NCBI GenBank assembly: GCA_002840755.1
Contig: PHBZ01000009.1
Coordinates: 124,001-188,000 of the forward strand
Length of the DNA: 64,000 nt
Source: Chloroflexi bacterium HGW-Chloroflexi-10
GTDB lineage: Bacteria > Chloroflexota > Anaerolineae > Anaerolineales > Anaerolineaceae
Reading direction: 5' to 3'
How positions within the stretch are numbered: position 1 is the first letter of the stretch; every line of letters begins with the position of its first letter. Both the position numbers and the translations under genes were made by a program. Under the pieces are notes generated by a model. It was not told the DNA's origin. It saw only the letters and a list, made by a program, of their open reading frames with translations, and did no database searches. Below, piece by piece: positions 19,367-26,495 of the stretch.

Positions 19367-20218
19367 ATGTCTGATTACATGCATCCTGAAGTTCTGGTTG
19401 AAACGGATTGGGTACAGCAACATCTCAATGATACCCAGATGCGCCTGGTGGAATCAAATGAAGATGCGCTTTTGTACGAAACCGGTCATATCCCCGGTGC
19501 AGCCAAGATTGATTGGTTCACCGTATTACAGCATCCCACCCGGCGTGATTTCCTCTCAAGAAGTGATTTTGAGAAATTATGTTCGACGCTAGGCATTGCC
19601 AATGATACAGTGGTTGTCTTTTATGGAGACAAAAGCAATTGGTTTGCAGTGTATGCTTTCTGGTTGTTCCTCTATTTCGGGCATGAGAATCTGCGCGTGA
19701 TGAATGGCGGGCGAGCCAAATGGGTTGCCGAAGGACGCCCACTGACCAACGAAACCACATCGCATGAACCAACCCAATACCGGGCACTGACTCCCAACAA
19801 CACCATACGCGCTTTTCGGGATGATGTCTTCCGTCACCTGGAACGGAAATTGCCGCTGGTGGATGTACGCTCACCAAAGGAATTCAGTGGTGAACTGCTG
19901 CACATGCCCGGATATCCTCAGGAAGGCGCACAACGCGGTGGTCATATCCCCGGCGCGGTAAACATTCCATGGGCGCAGACTGTTCGTGAAGATGGCACCT
20001 TTAAATCGGCTGATGAACTGCATGATTTGTACCGCGCGCAAGGCATCTACCCGGAAAAAGACATTATCGCTTATTGTCGTATCGGGGAGCGTAGTTCCCA
20101 TTCCTGGTTTGTGTTGCAATTTCTGCTTGGATACCCCAGTGTAAAGAACTACGACGGCTCGTGGACCGAATGGGGTAATCTGGTCGGCGCGCCTGTCGAA
20201 AAAGGACCAGGGGCATGA
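19367..20218 (+). CDS. two-domain rhodanese (thiosulfate sulfurtransferase)
   Basis: Protein of 283 residues starting 7 bp after a strong AAGGAGG site. It has two rhodanese domains: an inactive N-terminal one with the [13 protein letters not shown] motif, and a C-terminal one with [25 protein letters not shown] and the active-site loop [15 protein letters not shown], whose Cys carries the persulfide. The CRIGER loop is typical of thiosulfate-type enzymes rather than mercaptopyruvate ones. The stop overlaps the sufE-like start (ATGA), so the two are co-translated. This suggests sulfur delivery for Fe-S cluster assembly or related thiolation. Confidence 0.9.
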
Positions 20219-20652
20219 GTTCAGAAAAGGTACTGCCACTCAACCTGGAAGAAATTGTGGGCGATTTTGAATTGTGTGAAGGACGCGAAAAGCTGGAACT
20301 GCTCCTGGATTTTGCCCGGAGCTTTCCGGATTTTCCGGATCAATTACACTCAAATTTCGGTATGGAAGAGGTGCCTGAATGCATGACCCCTGTCCACATG
20401 GCATCTGAAGAAAAAGAAGGCAAACTTTTTTTCTACTTTGATATTCCGCCTGAATCACCGACAGTACGCGGGTTTGCTACGTTGATGATGAATGGCATCA
20501 ATGGTTGTAATGCTGAAGAGATTCTGCGTATCCCATCCGATTTTTACCTTAGTATGGGCCTGCAAGATGTGCTTACCCCACAGCGCTTGAATGGGATGGC
20601 AGCCATTCTGGCGCACGTCCAACGCCGCGCGGCACAATCGTTAAATTCATAG
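20215..20652 (+). CDS. sufE: SufE-family sulfur acceptor protein
   Basis: Protein of 145 residues with the SufE layout: an N-terminal helix, the acceptor Cys in [11 protein letters not shown], the strand [18 protein letters not shown], and a C-terminal helical region with LGLQ-like [17 protein letters not shown]. SufE takes persulfide sulfur from a cysteine desulfurase and passes it to the Fe-S scaffold. Here its start overlaps the rhodanese stop by 4 bp, suggesting that the rhodanese is its sulfur source or competitor. No SufS or scaffold gene lies in the window. Confidence 0.85.
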
Positions 20653-20895: not shown

Positions 20896-21061
20896 GTTAA
20901 TATTCATTGGTTGAATTCCATTTTTACAGGTTTTTCAACACACCCCATCCCAACACAATTTATTTAACGGTACTTAATTAAAAGAATTCTTGCGTTCCAG
21001 CTTCAAGAATGCCTTTTCGTTTAATTTGTCTTTTCTATTATCGGGAAAGGAGATGTTATTT

Positions 21062-22210
21062 ATGTTTCATTTTGGAGAAAGCATCCAGGAGGTCCTTCAG
21101 AGAGAAGGATTGTCGCGCCGCGATTTCTTAAAGTTCTGTGGGCTGATGGCCGGCGCTTTGACGCTGCCAAAAAGCGCCGCTGACCAAATTGCCCGCGCAT
21201 TGGAATCCCCCAGACGGTTGCCGGTCGTCTGGCTGGAACTGCAGGATTGCGCCGGCTGCAGTGAAGCCTTCCTGCGTTCTACCAGCCCAACCGCGGCAGA
21301 GTTGGTTTTGGATGTACTTTCCGTAGACTATCATGAAACCATTATGGCTGCTTCAGGATTTCAAGCAGAAAAATCTAAAGACGATGCGCTTGCTGCCGGC
21401 GGATATATTCTTGTTGTAGAAGGTTCTATTTCGGTATCCGGTAGCGGTGAATATTGCTGCATCGCGGGGAAATCCTCCAAGGCTATTCTGGAAGAAGCTG
21501 CCGAAAACGCCGTTGCGATCATTGCGGTTGGCAATTGCGCCACTTTTGGTGGTATTCCGGCTGCCAATCCGAATCCGACCGGAGCGGTAGGAGTTTGGGA
21601 TATCATCAAAAACAAACCGGTTATTAATATTGCCGGCTGTCCAATGAACCCCGCCAACCTTACCGCCACTGTTGTCCATTACCTGACCTTTGGAGCGCTG
21701 CCTGAAATGGACCAATTTAACCGCCCACTATTTGCATTTGGCCGTCGTATTCACGATAATTGTGAGCGGCGCGGTCATTTTGATGCGGGTGAATTTGTGA
21801 TGGAGTGGGGAGATGAAGGCCACCGTGCCGGATGGTGCCTGTATAAGATGGGATGTAAGGGGCCAGCTTCCTACCATAATTGCCCAAGTATCCGTTATAA
21901 CGACGGCACCAGTTGGCCTATTGCAGCCGGACACCCCTGTATCGGCTGCTCTGAACCCGGATTCTGGAACTGGGAAGTATACAAACCGGTCTATCTCAAT
22001 GAAATAACCCCTCCGATTACTTTTCCAACGGTTGAAAACCCGGAGCGCCAGATTTCGCCGGCTGCCATCGCCATTAGTGGTACCGCCATAGGGGCAATCA
22101 CCGGCGCTGCGGGTGCCTTTGCCTATAACTCGATCACCAGGCGATCAAAAGGAATCGGGCCGGATGTGGATGAAAGCGAACCAGAAGAACACTTTACCGA
22201 GCAGCATTAG
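21062..22210 (+). CDS. hybO: [NiFe] hydrogenase small subunit (Hyb-type, Tat-exported)
   Basis: Protein of 382 residues from the ATG at 21062, 9 bp after AAAGGAG; an ATG at 21053 sits too close to that site. The N-terminus has a twin-arginine signal (SRRDFLKFCG). Ligands of the proximal cluster are in DCAGCSE, GNCATFGG and AGCPMNP. The distal cluster His/Cys are in IHDNCERRGHF and KMGCKGP, and further Cys in HNCP and HPCIGCSEPGFW serve the medial cluster. A hydrophobic C-terminal helix anchors it to the membrane. It passes electrons from the large subunit to the ferredoxin-like and NrfD-like subunits encoded next. Confidence 0.93.
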   Translation: MFHFGESIQEVLQREGLSRRDFLKFCGLMAGALTLPKSAADQIARALESPRRLPVVWLELQDCAGCSEAFLRSTSPTAAELVLDVLSVDYHETIMAASGFQAEKSKDDALAAGGYILVVEGSISVSGSGEYCCIAGKSSKAILEEAAENAVAIIAVGNCATFGGIPAANPNPTGAVGVWDIIKNKPVINIAGCPMNPANLTATVVHYLTFGALPEMDQFNRPLFAFGRRIHDNCERRGHFDAGEFVMEWGDEGHRAGWCLYKMGCKGPASYHNCPSIRYNDGTSWPIAAGHPCIGCSEPGFWNWEVYKPVYLNEITPPITFPTVENPERQISPAAIAISGTAIGAITGAAGAFAYNSITRRSKGIGPDVDESEPEEHFTEQH

Positions 22211-22226: not shown

Positions 22227-23087
22227 ATGGAGATAAACCGTAGAGACTTCCTAAAAATGGCCGGTGCCGGACTCGGTGGTTTTATGTTGCCAATCCCCTC
22301 ACCAATCGATGCCAGCGCGACTAATAATGCTGAAGAGTCATCCTCAATGCTATATGACACCACTCTATGTGTGGGCTGCCGGGCTTGCCAGACCGCCTGT
22401 AAAAATCGTGCCGGGCTGCCCTACGAGACCGATGCTCAGCATATGTATGAAATGCCAACTGAACTGACCGCCGACACCTGGACCCTGATCAAACTGTATG
22501 ACGGTAATGAAGATTGGTCTTTCATTAAAAAGCAGTGTATGCACTGCATCGAGCCGGCTTGCGCCTCAGTTTGCCCGGTGCAGGCTCTCGAAAAGACCCC
22601 GGAAGGCCCCGTTATATACCATGCCTACAAATGTATTGGCTGCCGCTACTGTATGACAGCCTGTCCTTTTGATATCCCAAAATATGAATGGGATCAAGTA
22701 AAACCATTTATTCAGAAATGTGATTTCTGTGCGGATCGTCTGGCCGAAGGATTGGAGCCTGCCTGCGGTGCAGCCTGCCCAACCGGTGCATTAATCTCAG
22801 GCCGGCGCGGTAATATGCTGGAAATCGCTCGTAAACGTATCCAGGATAAACCGGATAGTTACACCAAACACATTTATGGGGAACATGAAGTTGGCGGCAC
22901 ATCCATGCTCTACCTTACACATGTTGCCTATGATAAATTGGGTTTCCCGGAGTTGGGCGAAGACCCGATTCCTGAGATCACCTGGCCATACATGAAGGCT
23001 GTACCATTTGTATTCTTCGGTATGGGTGCCATTATGGCCGGCATTTATGCCATTACCCACCGCAATAAGAAATCTGAGGAGGTATAA
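22227..23087 (+). CDS. hybA: HybA-like four-cluster ferredoxin subunit
   Basis: Protein of 286 residues. It has a Tat-type N-terminus (NRRDFLKMAGAG), then 4Fe-4S ligand groups CVGCRACQTAC, CMHCIEPACASVCP, CIGCRYCMTACPF and CDFCADR...CGAACP, the four-cluster pattern of HybA/DmsB-like electron carriers. The hydrophobic C-terminus (PFVFFGMGAIMAGIYAI) anchors it in the membrane. It carries electrons between the small subunit and the quinone-reactive HybB-like protein. ATG at 22227 follows GGAAGGAG. It starts 16 bp after the small subunit stop. Confidence 0.92.
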   Translation: MEINRRDFLKMAGAGLGGFMLPIPSPIDASATNNAEESSSMLYDTTLCVGCRACQTACKNRAGLPYETDAQHMYEMPTELTADTWTLIKLYDGNEDWSFIKKQCMHCIEPACASVCPVQALEKTPEGPVIYHAYKCIGCRYCMTACPFDIPKYEWDQVKPFIQKCDFCADRLAEGLEPACGAACPTGALISGRRGNMLEIARKRIQDKPDSYTKHIYGEHEVGGTSMLYLTHVAYDKLGFPELGEDPIPEITWPYMKAVPFVFFGMGAIMAGIYAITHRNKKSEEV

Positions 23088-23088
23088 C

Positions 23089-24240
23089 ATGGCTACCGGT
23101 TTAGGAGAAATCAGACTTCGGCGCTACCCGGTGGGCGTGGGAATGATCCTCATCTGGCTTACCGGTGCGGTTGGACTGGGTGTGGCGGTCTACCGTTGGA
23201 TTGTTGGGTTACATATTACCAACATGAGCGACGGCCGGCCATGGGGCATCTGGATCAGTTTTGATATGATGAGCGGAATCGGGTTAGCAGCCGGTGCTTT
23301 TTCGGTTGCAGCGATTGTGTATGTGTTTAACCTTAAAAAACTGTACCCAATTGTGCGCCCGACCATTCTGACCGGCTTTATCAGCTACATTCTGGCTGCA
23401 TTAACCCTGCTGGTCGACCTGGGTTTACCGGATCGTATCTGGCATTTGATCATTTATTGGAATATCCACTCACCGCTCTTTGAGATCGGCTGGTGTGTCA
23501 TGGCTTATACGACGGTTCTGGCGCTGGAATTCAGCCCGATCCTGTTTGAAGCATTGGGCTGGAAGGTGCCGCTGCAATTTATCCGCCGCGTTACCATTCC
23601 ATTGGTTATTCTGGGGATCATGCTTTCCACACTGCACCAATCCACCCTGGGAACAATGCTCACCGCCTTACCTTACCGTATTCACCCGCTGTGGTATTCA
23701 CCACTCCTGCCGCTGTATTTCTTTATAACGGCAATTGCTGCCGGATTAGCCATGACTGTTTTCGAGAGTTACCATTCCGCCCGTACCTATCAGCAAAAAT
23801 TTGAATTGGGCATTGTCTCCACACTCACCAAATGGATTCCCTATGTGTTGGGGGTTTACTTTGTCATCCGCATCATTGAGTTATTTGTTACCGGAAAATA
23901 TGTTTACCTGGTACAGGATCCCTGGCCGACTTTTTTCTTCTTGATCGAAATGATGGGTGGCATCTTGATCCCAATTCTCTTGTTCGCCGACCGGCGCGTA
24001 CGCAACAGTCAGAGCGGTATTGTCTGGGCAGCCTTTCTGACCATGGGCGGCTTAATTCTGAACCGATTTAACACCAGCCTGGTGTTTCTGAATGGTGATT
24101 TTTACTTTCCCAGTGCGGCAGAAATCGCCGTATCCATTGGGCTGACCTGTTTAGGGATCATCATGTTTGATGCGGCTATTCGCTTTTTACCTATGTATAA
24201 AGAACCGAAAAAAGAACAAACAGCTATTAAACAAATTTAG
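23089..24240 (+). CDS. hybB: HybB/NrfD-like integral membrane subunit
   Basis: Protein of 383 residues with about ten membrane segments and the NrfD-family features [17 protein letters not shown] near the front and [23 protein letters not shown] near the end. It exchanges electrons with the quinone pool and may couple this to proton movement. The ATG at 23089 follows a GAGGAGG site inside the hybA end and lies 1 bp after the hybA stop. The longer frame from 23008 overlaps hybA and is not needed. Confidence 0.92.
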
Positions 24241-24266: not shown

Positions 24267-25985
24267 ATGGCAAAAATTGTTATTGATCCCATTACCCGGA
24301 TTGAAGGTCACCTGCGCATTGAAGTGGAAGTGGATGGCGGCAAAGTCACCAAAGCCTGGAGCAGCAGCACCATGTTCCGCGGTATTGAAGAAATCCTCAA
24401 AGGCCGCGACCCGCGTGGAGCCTGGACGATCACTCAGCGTATTTGCGGTGTTTGAACGACGGTACACGCAGTCAGCTCCGTGCGAGCTGTAGAAGATGCT
24501 CTGAAAATTCAGGTACCAACCAATGCGCGGATCATCCGCAATATTATTGATGCCATTCAATTTGTACAGGACCATGTGGTCCATTTCTACCATCTGCATG
24601 CCCTCGACTGGGTGGATATTGTCAACGCGTTGGAAGCCGACCCACAGGCAACTGCCGACCTGGCGCAATCTATCTCCGATTGGCCCAACTCCAGCCCAAC
24701 TTATTTTCAAGCAGTGCAGGATAAGGTGAAAAAATTTGTGGCCAGCGGGCAGTTGGGTATCTTTGCCAACGCCTATTGGGGTCACCCGGCTTACAAACTA
24801 CCCCCCGAAGCCAACCTGATGGCCGTAGCGCATTACCTGGAGGCCCTGGATTGGCAGCGTGAAGTCATCAAAGCGCACGCCATCTTGGGTGCAAAGAATC
24901 CACACCTGCAAACCTACCTGGTAGGCGGCATGTCCATTCCGGTCGACCCGAACAGCGAAGTAGCCATAAACGCGGATAAGATCGCCCAGTTATTGCAATT
25001 GTTCGCCAAAGCTAAAGACTTTGTTAACCGCGTTTACCTGCCGGATGTCCTGGCTGTGGCACCTTTCTACCTGGATTGGGCCGGTATTGGCGAAGGCCTG
25101 GGCAACTTCATGTCCTATGGTGATATCCCGCTGGTGGATAACTTCGACCCGAACAAACCCGGAGATATGTTCTTCCCGCGCGGCATTATTTTGGACCGCG
25201 ACCTGAGTACGGTGCACCCACTCGACCCGGAAAAGATTAACGAATACGTTACTCACTCCTGGTACACGTATGAGGACGAGAAACAAGGTCTGCATCCATC
25301 GGTGGGAACTACGGTAGCCAACTATACCGGTCCCAAACCACCCTACGAATTCCTGGACACCGAAAATAAATACTCCTGGCTCAAGGCTCCGCGTTATGAT
25401 GAAAAATCCATGGAAGTTGGCCCATTGGCACGGATGCTGATTGGCTACGCTTCCGGGCAGGAACGCGTTGTGGAACTGGTTAACGCCGTCCTCACAAAAC
25501 TGGACGCCCCGGCCACCGCCCTGTTCTCCACTCTTGGCCGCGTAGCCGCGCGCTGCATCGAAACCGTGCTGCTGGCAGAAAACCTGGAAACCTGGACGCT
25601 GGAACTGGCCGCGAATATCGCCAAGGGCGACCTGGCCATTCACGAACAGGCGCATTGGGATCCCTCTACCTGGCCGGCCGAATGTATGGGCTGGGGTTGG
25701 ACGGAGGCTCCACGCGGCGCGTTGGGTCACTGGATCCACATCAAAGACGGCAAGATCGCTAATTACCAGGCAATTGTCCCCTCCACCTGGAACGGCTCCC
25801 CGCGCGATGCCAATGGTTTACCAGGCGCATATGAGGCTGCGCTGATTGGCACTCCGGTTGCCGACCCGAACATGCCTGTCGAGATCCTACGTACTGTGCA
25901 TTCCTTCGATCCCTGCATGGCCTGCGCCGTACACGTGCTGGACGCCCAGGGTAACGAAATCACCAGCGTAATTGTGATGGACTAA
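24267..25985 (+). CDS. hybC: [NiFe] hydrogenase large subunit with in-frame TGA (putative selenocysteine 63)
   Basis: Read through a TGA at 24453-24455, the frame gives 572 residues. The N-terminal nickel motif is RICGV-TGA-TTVH: Cys60 is present, the TGA takes the place of the second Cys (residue 63) and His67 is in register. The C-terminal motif DPCMACAVH (Cys550, Cys553) is intact, followed by a 16-residue tail for protease removal. On both sides of the TGA the sequence is normal for the family (DPITRIEGH at 7-15, [12 protein letters not shown] after). No ribosome site precedes any internal start, and a protein starting at GTG 24480 would lack the first metal ligands. A hairpin follows the TGA (24473-24489). 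I infer selenocysteine insertion at a bridging ligand; a nonsense mutation or sequence error is the alternative. The ATG at 24267, 7 bp after AAGGAG, fits better than 24261. Confidence 0.9.
24473..24489 (+). promoter_or_regulatory. candidate bacterial SECIS stem-loop
   Basis: Perfect 6-bp stem CAGCTC (24473-24478) and GAGCTG (24484-24489) with the 5-nt loop CGTGC. The stem begins 17 nt and the loop 23 nt after the TGA at 24453-24455. Bacterial SelB-binding hairpins lie directly 3' of the UGA within the coding sequence and carry an exposed G/U pair in the loop, as here. A lower helix (GCA 24468-24470 with TGC 24497-24499) is possible but weak. Confidence 0.55.
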
Positions 25986-25988
25986 CCC

Positions 25989-26495
25989 TTGATACCTAAA
26001 ACCCTCATTTTAGGGGTTGGCAATTATCTGCTCTCAGATGATGGCGTCAGCGTGCATGCCATTGAACGCATGCTGACGCTGCACCAACTCCCTGCTGAAA
26101 TCCAGGTCGTGGATGGCGGTACCTGCGGCCTGGATCTGCTCCAATATCTGGAAGGTATCAGCCGCCTGATCATCGTCGATGCCGTTAATAACCGTGCCGA
26201 ACCAGGCACCCTCATCCGCCTGACCGGTGACCAGGTACCCGCCTATCTTTCCTTAAAAATATCACCGCATGATATCGGCTTGCCGGACCTGCTGGCCACC
26301 GCCAAACTGCGTGACCTCTACCCGCAGCAGGTGGTCGTCCTCGGCATCCAGCCGGAATCGTTGGCAGTGGGTGTGGAACTCACACCGGTAGTGGCAGCTC
26401 GGTTGGATGAGTTGGTTCAGGCGGTTTTTGAAGAGGCGATGAAGAAAATAGTAGAGATAAATACCTCATCCATTACCCGTGTCACAACGATTTAG
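25989..26495 (+). CDS. hybD: hydrogenase maturation endopeptidase (HybD/HyaD family)
   Basis: Protein of 168 residues from TTG at 25989, 3 bp after the large subunit stop. It has the family start LILGVGNYLLSDDGVSVHAIE with the nickel-sensing Asp/Glu positions, a mid-domain DGGTCGLDLL and ISPHDIGLPDLL with the conserved His. It clips the large subunit after the His of the DPCMACAVH motif once nickel has been inserted. It is the last gene of the operon and is followed by a terminator. The general Hyp maturation genes are not in this window. Confidence 0.9.
   Translation: MIPKTLILGVGNYLLSDDGVSVHAIERMLTLHQLPAEIQVVDGGTCGLDLLQYLEGISRLIIVDAVNNRAEPGTLIRLTGDQVPAYLSLKISPHDIGLPDLLATAKLRDLYPQQVVVLGIQPESLAVGVELTPVVAARLDELVQAVFEEAMKKIVEINTSSITRVTTI

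Follow-up and report, generated by a model that had tools for sequence, protein, structure and literature searches.

A Hyb-type hydrogenase gene with UGA at the bridging cysteine codon: candidate natural hydrogenases with one or two N-terminal selenocysteine ligands

Introduction

Can selenocysteine (Sec) stand, in a natural enzyme, at the cysteine that bridges the nickel and iron of a [NiFe] hydrogenase? The question is raised by a hybC-type gene at 24267-25985 in a 64,000-nt stretch of DNA (the window; contig PHBZ01000009.1 of assembly GCA_002840755.1, positions 124,001 to 188,000) from Chloroflexi bacterium HGW-Chloroflexi-10. On sequence grounds, the gene product is the large subunit of a HybC-type group 1 [NiFe] hydrogenase, for which activity with H2 is predicted, and its N-terminal nickel motif is interrupted by an in-frame TGA at codon 63. 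Comparison with its relatives points to a natural [NiFeSe] hydrogenase that very probably carries a bridging Sec at UGA63, inserted with the help of a selenocysteine insertion sequence (SECIS) and SelB, and that has a sister form carrying Sec at two ligand positions. A wider proposition, held somewhat less firmly but still likely, is that lineages of the Chloroflexota, the Nitrospirota, and bins titled Deltaproteobacteria employ a bridging selenolate and, no less often, a double selenolate, with one SECIS region for two UGA codons that lie 9 nt apart.

The gene and its active-site codons

The gene and the codons of its predicted metal ligands are as follows.

24267..25985, + strand: hybC-type [NiFe(Se)] hydrogenase large subunit, 572 amino acids if the TGA is read through (PF00374 match)
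24444..24446, + strand: codon 60, TGC (TGA in relatives of the double-TGA form), predicted terminal Ni ligand
24453..24455, + strand: codon 63, TGA, predicted bridging Ni-Fe ligand, read as Sec from the frame and the alignment of homologues
25914..25925, + strand: C-terminal CxxC, TGC...TGC; Cys here, the Sec site of classical [NiFeSe] enzymes

The reading frame extends from an ATG at 24267, with AAGGAG standing 5′ of it, to a TAA at 25983-25985, and its sole internal stop is the TGA at codon 63, in the context RICGV-TGA-TTVH. An earlier note, made from the letters alone, had placed a TGA at the second Cys of the N-terminal nickel motif, and this is borne out. Its frame of 62 codons before and 510 after the TGA is indeed intact, although the 510 includes the stop codon. 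The C-terminal motif, DPCMACAVH, has Cys as the note had read it, encoded by TGC at both positions (25914-25916 and 25923-25925). The large subunit matches PF00374 (Pfam NiFeSe_Hases) with 786.5 bits over model positions 1-508 of 508, and the four-ligand pattern of RxCxxC plus DPCxxCxxH is complete only when the UGA is counted as Cys or Sec.

When the protein is aligned to solved group 1 hydrogenases, codons 60 and 63 coincide with the pair of Cys in the N-terminal motif, which agrees with the earlier claim that the TGA falls on the Cys bridging Ni and Fe. In the established numbering, the pair is C76/C79 of Hyd-1, and codon 63 is the N-terminal ligand shared by Ni and Fe. In the available text on the Escherichia coli enzymes, positions 61 and 64 of Hyd-2 are the N-terminal ligands, and position 64 is the equivalent of codon 63 (PMC11212049).

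In a mechanical list of open reading frames (ORFs), the only entry in the hybC frame is a 501-aa ORF that starts at a GTG at 24480. TGA terminates 7 of the 31 ORFs of at least 250 aa in this list for the window, and several hybC genes in the homologue set themselves end in TGA; therefore, UGA is not generally reassigned, and general reassignment was rejected as an explanation. The model of the classical HysA subunit, NF045518, scores 407.6 bits with the window protein, below its cut-off of 780, and seven relatives tested, among them one with a C-terminal Sec (L255), likewise fall under this cut-off. No NCBIfam model was reached at cut-off by the window large subunit or by these seven. HysA is distinguished by Sec at the first C-terminal Cys, the codon of which is TGC in the window (25914-25916).

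UGA at codons 60 and 63 among homologues

Relatives were gathered in a first scan of genome contigs, from which the best 80 of at least 588 confirmed relatives were retained, and in three wider samples, with the window protein as query and E ≤ 1e-100. The pooled set comprises 193 sequences, the window included, no two of which are identical in DNA or protein. Excluded before this count were five duplicates (L102, L103, L120, L193, and L240), a locus with N over the motif (L097), two hydrogenases of other kinds (L163 and L164), and a broken sequence (L256).

Codons 60 and 63 are Cys/Cys in 98 of the 193 sequences, Cys/TGA (CxxU) in 38, and TGA/TGA (UxxU) in 57, and none is TGA/Cys. UxxU is commoner than CxxU among the sequences read, and the lack of a TGA/Cys sequence in the set hints that gains and losses follow a set order. 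The internal stops of the 95 TGA-bearing sequences lie exclusively at codons 60 and 63. The earlier note would have given up its reading had homologues shown scattered decay around this site; instead, TGA is kept at codon 63 in many genomes. The pattern that marks selenoprotein genes is present: an in-frame UGA aligns with a conserved Cys, and homologues of either form occur (95 UGA, 98 Cys).

Other internal stops occur in three of the 193 sequences, all of which are Cys/Cys in the N-terminal motif. Two of these Cys-type relatives (L129 and L224) have an in-frame TAG, at codons 483 and 557, respectively, unrelated to the motif. The third (L255, 256-1857) has a TGA in the C-terminal motif, DP-TGA-MACAVH, that is, the classical Sec site, and serves the survey as a naturally occurring positive control.

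Among the best 80 relatives of the first scan, TGA occupies codon 63 only in 12 and both codons in 16, with no other internal stop in these 28; one further locus reads N at the motif and could not be scored. In the Chloroflexota sample, 59 of 400 genomes match, and three have a TGA in the N-terminal motif, namely the window genome, G242 (its sequence is the same as L031), and G061, as a fragment. The Nitrospirota sample, from the phylum of a Nitrospiraceae bin, yielded matches in 118 of 295 genomes, and the listed matches include 48 with two TGA and 20 with one. The sequences of 41 of the 48 were read and have TGA at codons 60 and 63 throughout, and those of 17 of the 20 all have it at codon 63 (L199 is numbered one higher). 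A bin titled Deltaproteobacteria defined the phylum of the third sample, in which 143 of 297 genomes match. At least 11 genomes among the matches listed were flagged for TGA; all were read, and the TGA of nine lies within the N-terminal motif (G029, G965, G837, G866, G975, G827, G879, G953, and G816), the remaining two being G985, with the classical C-terminal TGA, and G1013, which is broken. By record label, the lineages with TGA sequences are Chloroflexota, Nitrospirota, and Deltaproteobacteria. The TGA flags of G439 and G139 were discarded because the TGA lies outside the N-terminal motif (L163 and L164), as was L256, the TGA and TAG of which are away from the motif.

Three Nitrospirota genomes (G634, G559, and G741) harbor one TGA copy and one Cys copy each (L209/L217, L211/L212, and L219/L216, respectively). 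These pairs may be selenium-regulated isozymes.

A SECIS-like hairpin downstream of codon 63

Beyond what the earlier note had described, the survey revealed the commoner double-TGA form and a hairpin shortly after the UGA.

24473..24489, + strand: SECIS-like hairpin, stem 24473-24478/24484-24489, loop 24479-24483

This hairpin has a 6-bp stem and a 5-nt loop that starts with CG, its loop begins at nt 24 after UGA63, and its energy is -7.5 kcal/mol. A published model of bacterial SECIS elements (bSECIS) asks, in its available text, for a loop of 3-9 nt, a stem of 4-16 bp, a G in loop positions 1-2, a spacing of 16-37 nt, and a minimum free energy of -7.5 or lower (PMC13188914). The window hairpin lies within all of these limits, with its energy exactly at the boundary. 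Energies of -7.5 or lower are found in 32/38 CxxU and 15/57 UxxU sequences but in 7/98 Cys sequences, and the best unbroken hairpin beats 95% of 100 synonymous reshuffles in 31/38, 21/57, and 6/98, respectively.

Constraint on the RNA is also visible, where the amino acid is invariant, in the choice of synonymous codons. Among gene windows, the one with the hairpin ranks 5/501, 6/402, 18/272, and 9/414 in four TGA groups (duplicates were removed for the ranks 6/402 and 18/272) as opposed to 398/484, 227/502, 187/368, 301/472, and 112/318 in five Cys groups. Synonymous constraint 3′ of codon 63 is thus unusual in 4/4 TGA groups and in 0/5 Cys groups.

The form of the hairpin varies among lineages. 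Chloroflexota CxxU sequences share CAGCUC-CGUGC-GAGCUG, while their UxxU relatives have CUGCUC-CGUGC-GAGCAG, such that an A-U pair has become U-A and Ser70 (AGC) has become Cys (UGC) as a result. Eight sequences (L031, L032, L033, L035, L037, L041, L044, and L045) combine UGC at codon 70 with a synonymous Ala change that preserves the pairing of the hairpin. Residue 70 of these Chloroflexota UxxU proteins is thus apparently shaped by RNA structure. Nitrospirota hairpins, which frequently have a bulged base, end in GGU or in a 5-nt loop like the one above; part of a distant Nitrospirota subfamily has a longer stem and a 4-nt loop; and a group with the motif TYTH (within L250-L254) has an 8-bp stem and a GGU loop. 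The idea that all TGA sequences share one stem register was accordingly rejected in favor of three: the 5-nt loop, the 3-nt GGU loop, often bulged, and the longer stem with a 4-nt loop.

The first register pairs 73.5% of cells over 71 distinct TGA sequences and 53.6% over 87 distinct Cys sequences. Covariation was tested with 37 of the 71, picked by their loop and mutually related, so the figures are counts and not probabilities. The covariation score of these 37 is 0.158 versus 0.051 +/- 0.014 after shuffling, and 95.9% of cells are paired versus 89.1; neither value was reached in 500 shuffles. Two pairs change on both sides, which 16/500 shuffles match, and slid registers score 0.028 or less.

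The loop begins at nt 24 from UGA63 and nt 33 from UGA60, or at nt 19 and nt 28 in the longer-stem form. These spacings all fall within 16-37 nt; therefore, one element could serve both codons, and a single hairpin region could decode both UGA60 and UGA63.

Phylogeny and selection

A quick, unrooted FastTree tree was built from 175 sequences with both motif positions masked (the duplicates L103, L193, and L120 were still included). The three codon states require at least 11 changes on this tree versus a mean of 72.2 after shuffling. TGA forms occur in the Chloroflexota, in a main Nitrospirota clade, and in the distant Nitrospirota subfamily, which is approximately 47-51% identical to the window protein. 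Some Cys forms are nested within TGA forms, and losses as well as gains are therefore likely. A further subfamily outside the tree (L250-L254) is approximately 52-54% identical to the window protein, reads CGV-UGA-TYTH or -TYIH, and has its TGA at codon 63; it is perhaps an independent occurrence of TGA63.

The large subunit is under purifying selection downstream of UGA63. The ratio of nonsynonymous to synonymous substitution rates (dN/dS) 3′ of the TGA was computable in four of five comparisons and amounts to 0.03-0.07, with dS near saturation at 1.8-2.1. In the comparison with L030, dN/dS is 0.033 at a dS of 1.84.

Selenocysteine genes

The window genome amounts to 6.57 Mb in 101 contigs, with a completeness of 99.61% and a contamination of 6.67%. 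The earlier note had proposed that selA, selB, selC, and selD be sought elsewhere in the genome. The three protein genes are there: selA, selB, and selD all have matches over cut-off, and the same searches exceed their cut-offs in 1, 2, and 2 of 14 control genomes, respectively. The selD match (L018, contig C45) holds one in-frame TGA and is probably a selenoprotein gene itself. The fourth component, tRNA-Sec, is damaged in the window genome, as described below. Related genomes searched for it were those of the 28 TGA loci from the first scan plus the genome with N at its motif; 27 of these 29 have a tRNA-Sec over the family cut-off. In 11/11 relatives scanned, ARAGORN calls the tRNA with UCA anticodon tRNA-SeC (tca).

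Contrary evidence and alternative explanations

Several observations weigh against a natural Sec-containing hydrogenase of this kind. The relatives named are almost all metagenome bins. The sole tRNA-Sec gene with UCA anticodon in the window genome (L004:1499-1587, contig C24) is without approximately 15 nt, covering T-loop and 3′ acceptor strand, and scores 38.8 bits against a gathering score of 47. No second UCA tRNA is found among the eight matches, such that the assembly shows no intact selC. The 5′ 77 nt of the gene are 93.5% identical to the intact copy of the nearest relative, and the surroundings match; the deletion is a real lesion, a strain variant, or an assembly fault, and another copy may sit in a contig gap. 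Two TGA genomes, G029 and G035, have no tRNA-Sec over cut-off. The tRNA-Sec model exceeds its cut-off in 5/14 control genomes, and a match is therefore weak evidence by itself. The TGA genome G027 (1.2 Mb) has no selA over cut-off. Among the genomes of 50 of the 80 loci, selA exceeds its cut-off in 27/28 with TGA and also in 19/22 with Cys; therefore, it permits but does not discriminate, and it was rejected as a marker of the TGA form. With regard to the RNA, the SECIS stem of the window reaches -7.5 kcal/mol alone, only the limit of the model, and in a 33-nt fold the window sequence (identical to L022 over these 33 nt) adopts another structure, at -8.3 kcal/mol, while a 45-nt fold keeps the SECIS stem. 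An unbroken stem of four pairs with G at the loop start is absent from 21/57 UxxU sequences, several of which fold with a bulged stem. A plain folding test (free energy against synonymous shuffles) gave a modest result, with p ≤ 0.05 in 10/29 CxxU, 6/58 UxxU, and 8/88 Cys sequences.

A sequencing error or pseudogene, in which the TGA would be a single wrong base or a new nonsense mutation of a Cys codon, is scarcely credible. TGA is one base from TGC and TGT, the window selC copy looks damaged, and the bin has the contamination given above. However, codon 63 is TGA in 95/193 sequences from dozens of assemblies, and the recurrence of the identical codon therefore leaves one-base error no explanatory role; in addition, dN/dS 3′ of the TGA is low wherever it is computable, and the hairpin region is conserved. 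It is very improbable that the UGA is decoded by a suppressor tRNA as Cys or another residue and not as Sec. Cys is the residue replaced, and a tRNA-Cys with UCA anticodon is known elsewhere, but TGA in these hydrogenases is confined to active-site Cys codons while it terminates genes elsewhere, the UCA tRNA of the relatives is of Sec type according to ARAGORN, selA, selB, and selD are present, and a conserved 3′ hairpin is what SelB-dependent decoding would lead one to expect.

The class could also be real and the window organism the only one to be losing the Sec trait, with selC broken and hybC recently silenced. The damaged tRNA-Sec, syntenic with the intact copy of the nearest relative, and the lack of another UCA tRNA among the eight matches speak for such a loss, which is nevertheless unlikely: frame and hairpin are intact, dN/dS is low, selA, selB, and selD are over cut-off, and the lesion may stem from the assembly or reflect a strain variant, while another copy may lie between the 101 contigs. 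Slightly less doubtful, and compatible with natural Sec insertion, is a selenium-dependent switch in which UGA63 would mostly act as a stop, the full enzyme would be made only when selenium is plentiful, and a Cys paralogue would serve as back-up. Such pairs of TGA and Cys copies are found in G634, G559, and G741, but a single large subunit of group 1 is encoded in the window genome.

Operon and neighboring genes

The large subunit is the fourth gene of an operon with the order hybO-hybA-hybB-hybC-hybD, which includes an Fe-S small subunit and a maturation protease.

20990..22210, + strand: hybO-type small subunit with Tat signal (TIGR00391 hydA, 450.4 bits, over cut-off; TIGR01409; PF14720; PF01058)
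22227..23087, + strand: hybA-type ferredoxin subunit (NF008134 HybA, 276.4 bits, cut-off 263)
23089..24240, + strand: hybB/NrfD-type membrane subunit (PF03916 NrfD, over cut-off)
25989..26495, + strand: hybD-type maturation endopeptidase (PF01750; TIGR00072, 147.6 bits, over cut-off)

The hybO ORF opens at a TTG, and its true start is probably an ATG approximately 21 codons further in. The hybA and hybB ORFs are listed from 22113 and 23008, with likely starts at 22227 (MEINRRDFLK) and 23089, respectively. The HybB-type subunit scores 267.9 bits with NF008133, under the cut-off of 450. The operon shares its Tat-type small subunit and HybD-type protease with E. coli Hydrogenase-2 (hybOABCDE), which has the same O-A-B-C-D gene order. 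In contrast, Hydrogenase-2 has four Cys ligands to Ni, while the window gene has TGA at one of these positions.

Among the best 80 relatives, the O-A-B-C-D order is found at 12/12 CxxU loci versus 3/16 UxxU loci. Ten of the 16 UxxU loci (within L031-L065) have hybO-hybC-hybD with no HybA or HybB match at E ≤ 1e-5, and in these ten a gap separates hybC and hybD. A different membrane partner is likely at the UxxU loci without HybA and HybB, and the electron route may differ.

Immediately 5′ of the operon, a rhodanese-type sulfurtransferase and a SufE-like protein are encoded at 19367-20652. Their candidacy as selenium suppliers was rejected, with no match at E ≤ 1e-3 across the 81 loci searched. 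On the 3′ side, the 600-aa product of 26877-28679 matches choice-of-anchor Q, CSLREA, and Calx-beta-like models and is likely a surface protein. Elsewhere in the genome, contigs C58 and C24 hold two additional, distant hydrogenase-like or complex I-like large subunits (L258-L260) in stop-free frames of 477 and 398 aa.

Proposed mechanism

Under natural Sec insertion, the product of the window operon would be a periplasmic, membrane-linked group 1 hydrogenase of the Hyb type. The SECIS hairpin would direct SelB and Sec-tRNA to insert Sec at UGA63, such that the ligand between Ni and Fe becomes a selenolate, forming an Fe-Se-Ni bridge. In the sister clades, one hairpin region after UGA60 and UGA63 would provide two selenolates, one terminal and one bridging, next to two C-terminal Cys. 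Sec in the mature protein, its coordination to Ni and Fe, and the function of the enzyme are predictions from these comparisons. H2 would be oxidized or evolved, and the Fe-S small subunit, HybA, and HybB would relay the electrons to or from quinone, a route that fits the window and the CxxU loci (12/12). The bridging Se may alter Ni-Fe electronics and catalytic bias, quicken repair after oxidation, or both.

Relation to known hydrogenases and selenoproteins

Evans et al. (2021) reportedly engineered Cys-to-Sec exchanges in E. coli hydrogenases. According to the available text of a paper on Hyd-1 and Hyd-2, each of the four Ni-ligating Cys was singly exchanged for Sec, and the Hyd-2 variants with Sec at 61, 64, 546, and 549 were all active in H2 oxidation, at a reduced level (PMC11212049). 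Since all four single-Sec variants are active, a Sec site of this kind can be assembled. The earlier note had suggested that Se at the bridge might affect oxygen tolerance and activity. In Hyd-1, Sec at any position lowered H2 oxidation, and a gain in O2 tolerance is tied to the classical [NiFeSe] Sec position and not to the bridging one, according to the accessible part of a review (PMC9961374). These engineered forms are man-made and single, whereas those described here occur naturally, each with its own SECIS-like hairpin, and extend to a double exchange that the available text on Hyd-1 and Hyd-2 does not mention.

The classical [NiFeSe] enzymes (HysAB of Desulfovibrio and Desulfomicrobium; NF045518) are also of group 1 and have a UGA-encoded Sec as a ligand to Ni, and solved [NiFeSe] chains are among the matches to the window large subunit. 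However, the Sec of HysAB replaces the first C-terminal Cys, a terminal ligand, while the window enzyme has Cys there and its predicted Sec is N-terminal (bridging, or bridging and terminal in the double form). The archaeal [NiFeSe] enzymes FrhA and VhuA/VhuU belong to a different hydrogenase group and have an archaeal SECIS. These F420-reducing and non-reducing enzymes likewise carry Sec in the catalytic subunit, but as UxxC (PMC13188914). Other UxxU selenoproteins (Prx-like, FmdB family, and a metal-binding protein) have two Sec in a CxxC-type motif but are not hydrogenases (PMC13188914). In its accessible portion, the same 2026 review of selenoproteomes, the source of these comparisons, gives hydrogenase alpha subunits as UxxC, states that [NiFeSe] enzymes are exclusive to sulfate reducers and methanogens, and contains no occurrence of 'large subunit' or 'PF00374' (PMC13188914).

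The earlier note had known of no characterised enzyme with such a ligand. This stands for natural enzymes, in that no natural N-terminal Sec in a [NiFe] hydrogenase was seen in the accessible open-access full-text literature (subscription papers and preprints lie outside it, and a prior description is possible); it does not hold for engineered ones, given the earlier single exchanges in Hyd-1 and Hyd-2 (PMC11212049, in its available text). Natural bridging-Sec and double-Sec hydrogenases are thus apparently new within that literature, and single engineered exchanges were already known.

Significance

Genes of this kind are easily mis-called, as the lone GTG-initiated entry in the mechanical ORF list illustrates. 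The role of selenium in natural [NiFeSe] hydrogenases, including a bias toward H2 production, less product inhibition, and protection against O2, is treated in the literature accessed with respect to one ligand position. When engineered into other positions, Sec seemed unrewarding, yet several lineages and more than one subfamily appear to have retained a bridging Sec in evolution, often together with a second one. The double form raises the question of how two nearby UGA codons are served, and natural enzymes of this class would make the role of each chalcogen ligand testable.

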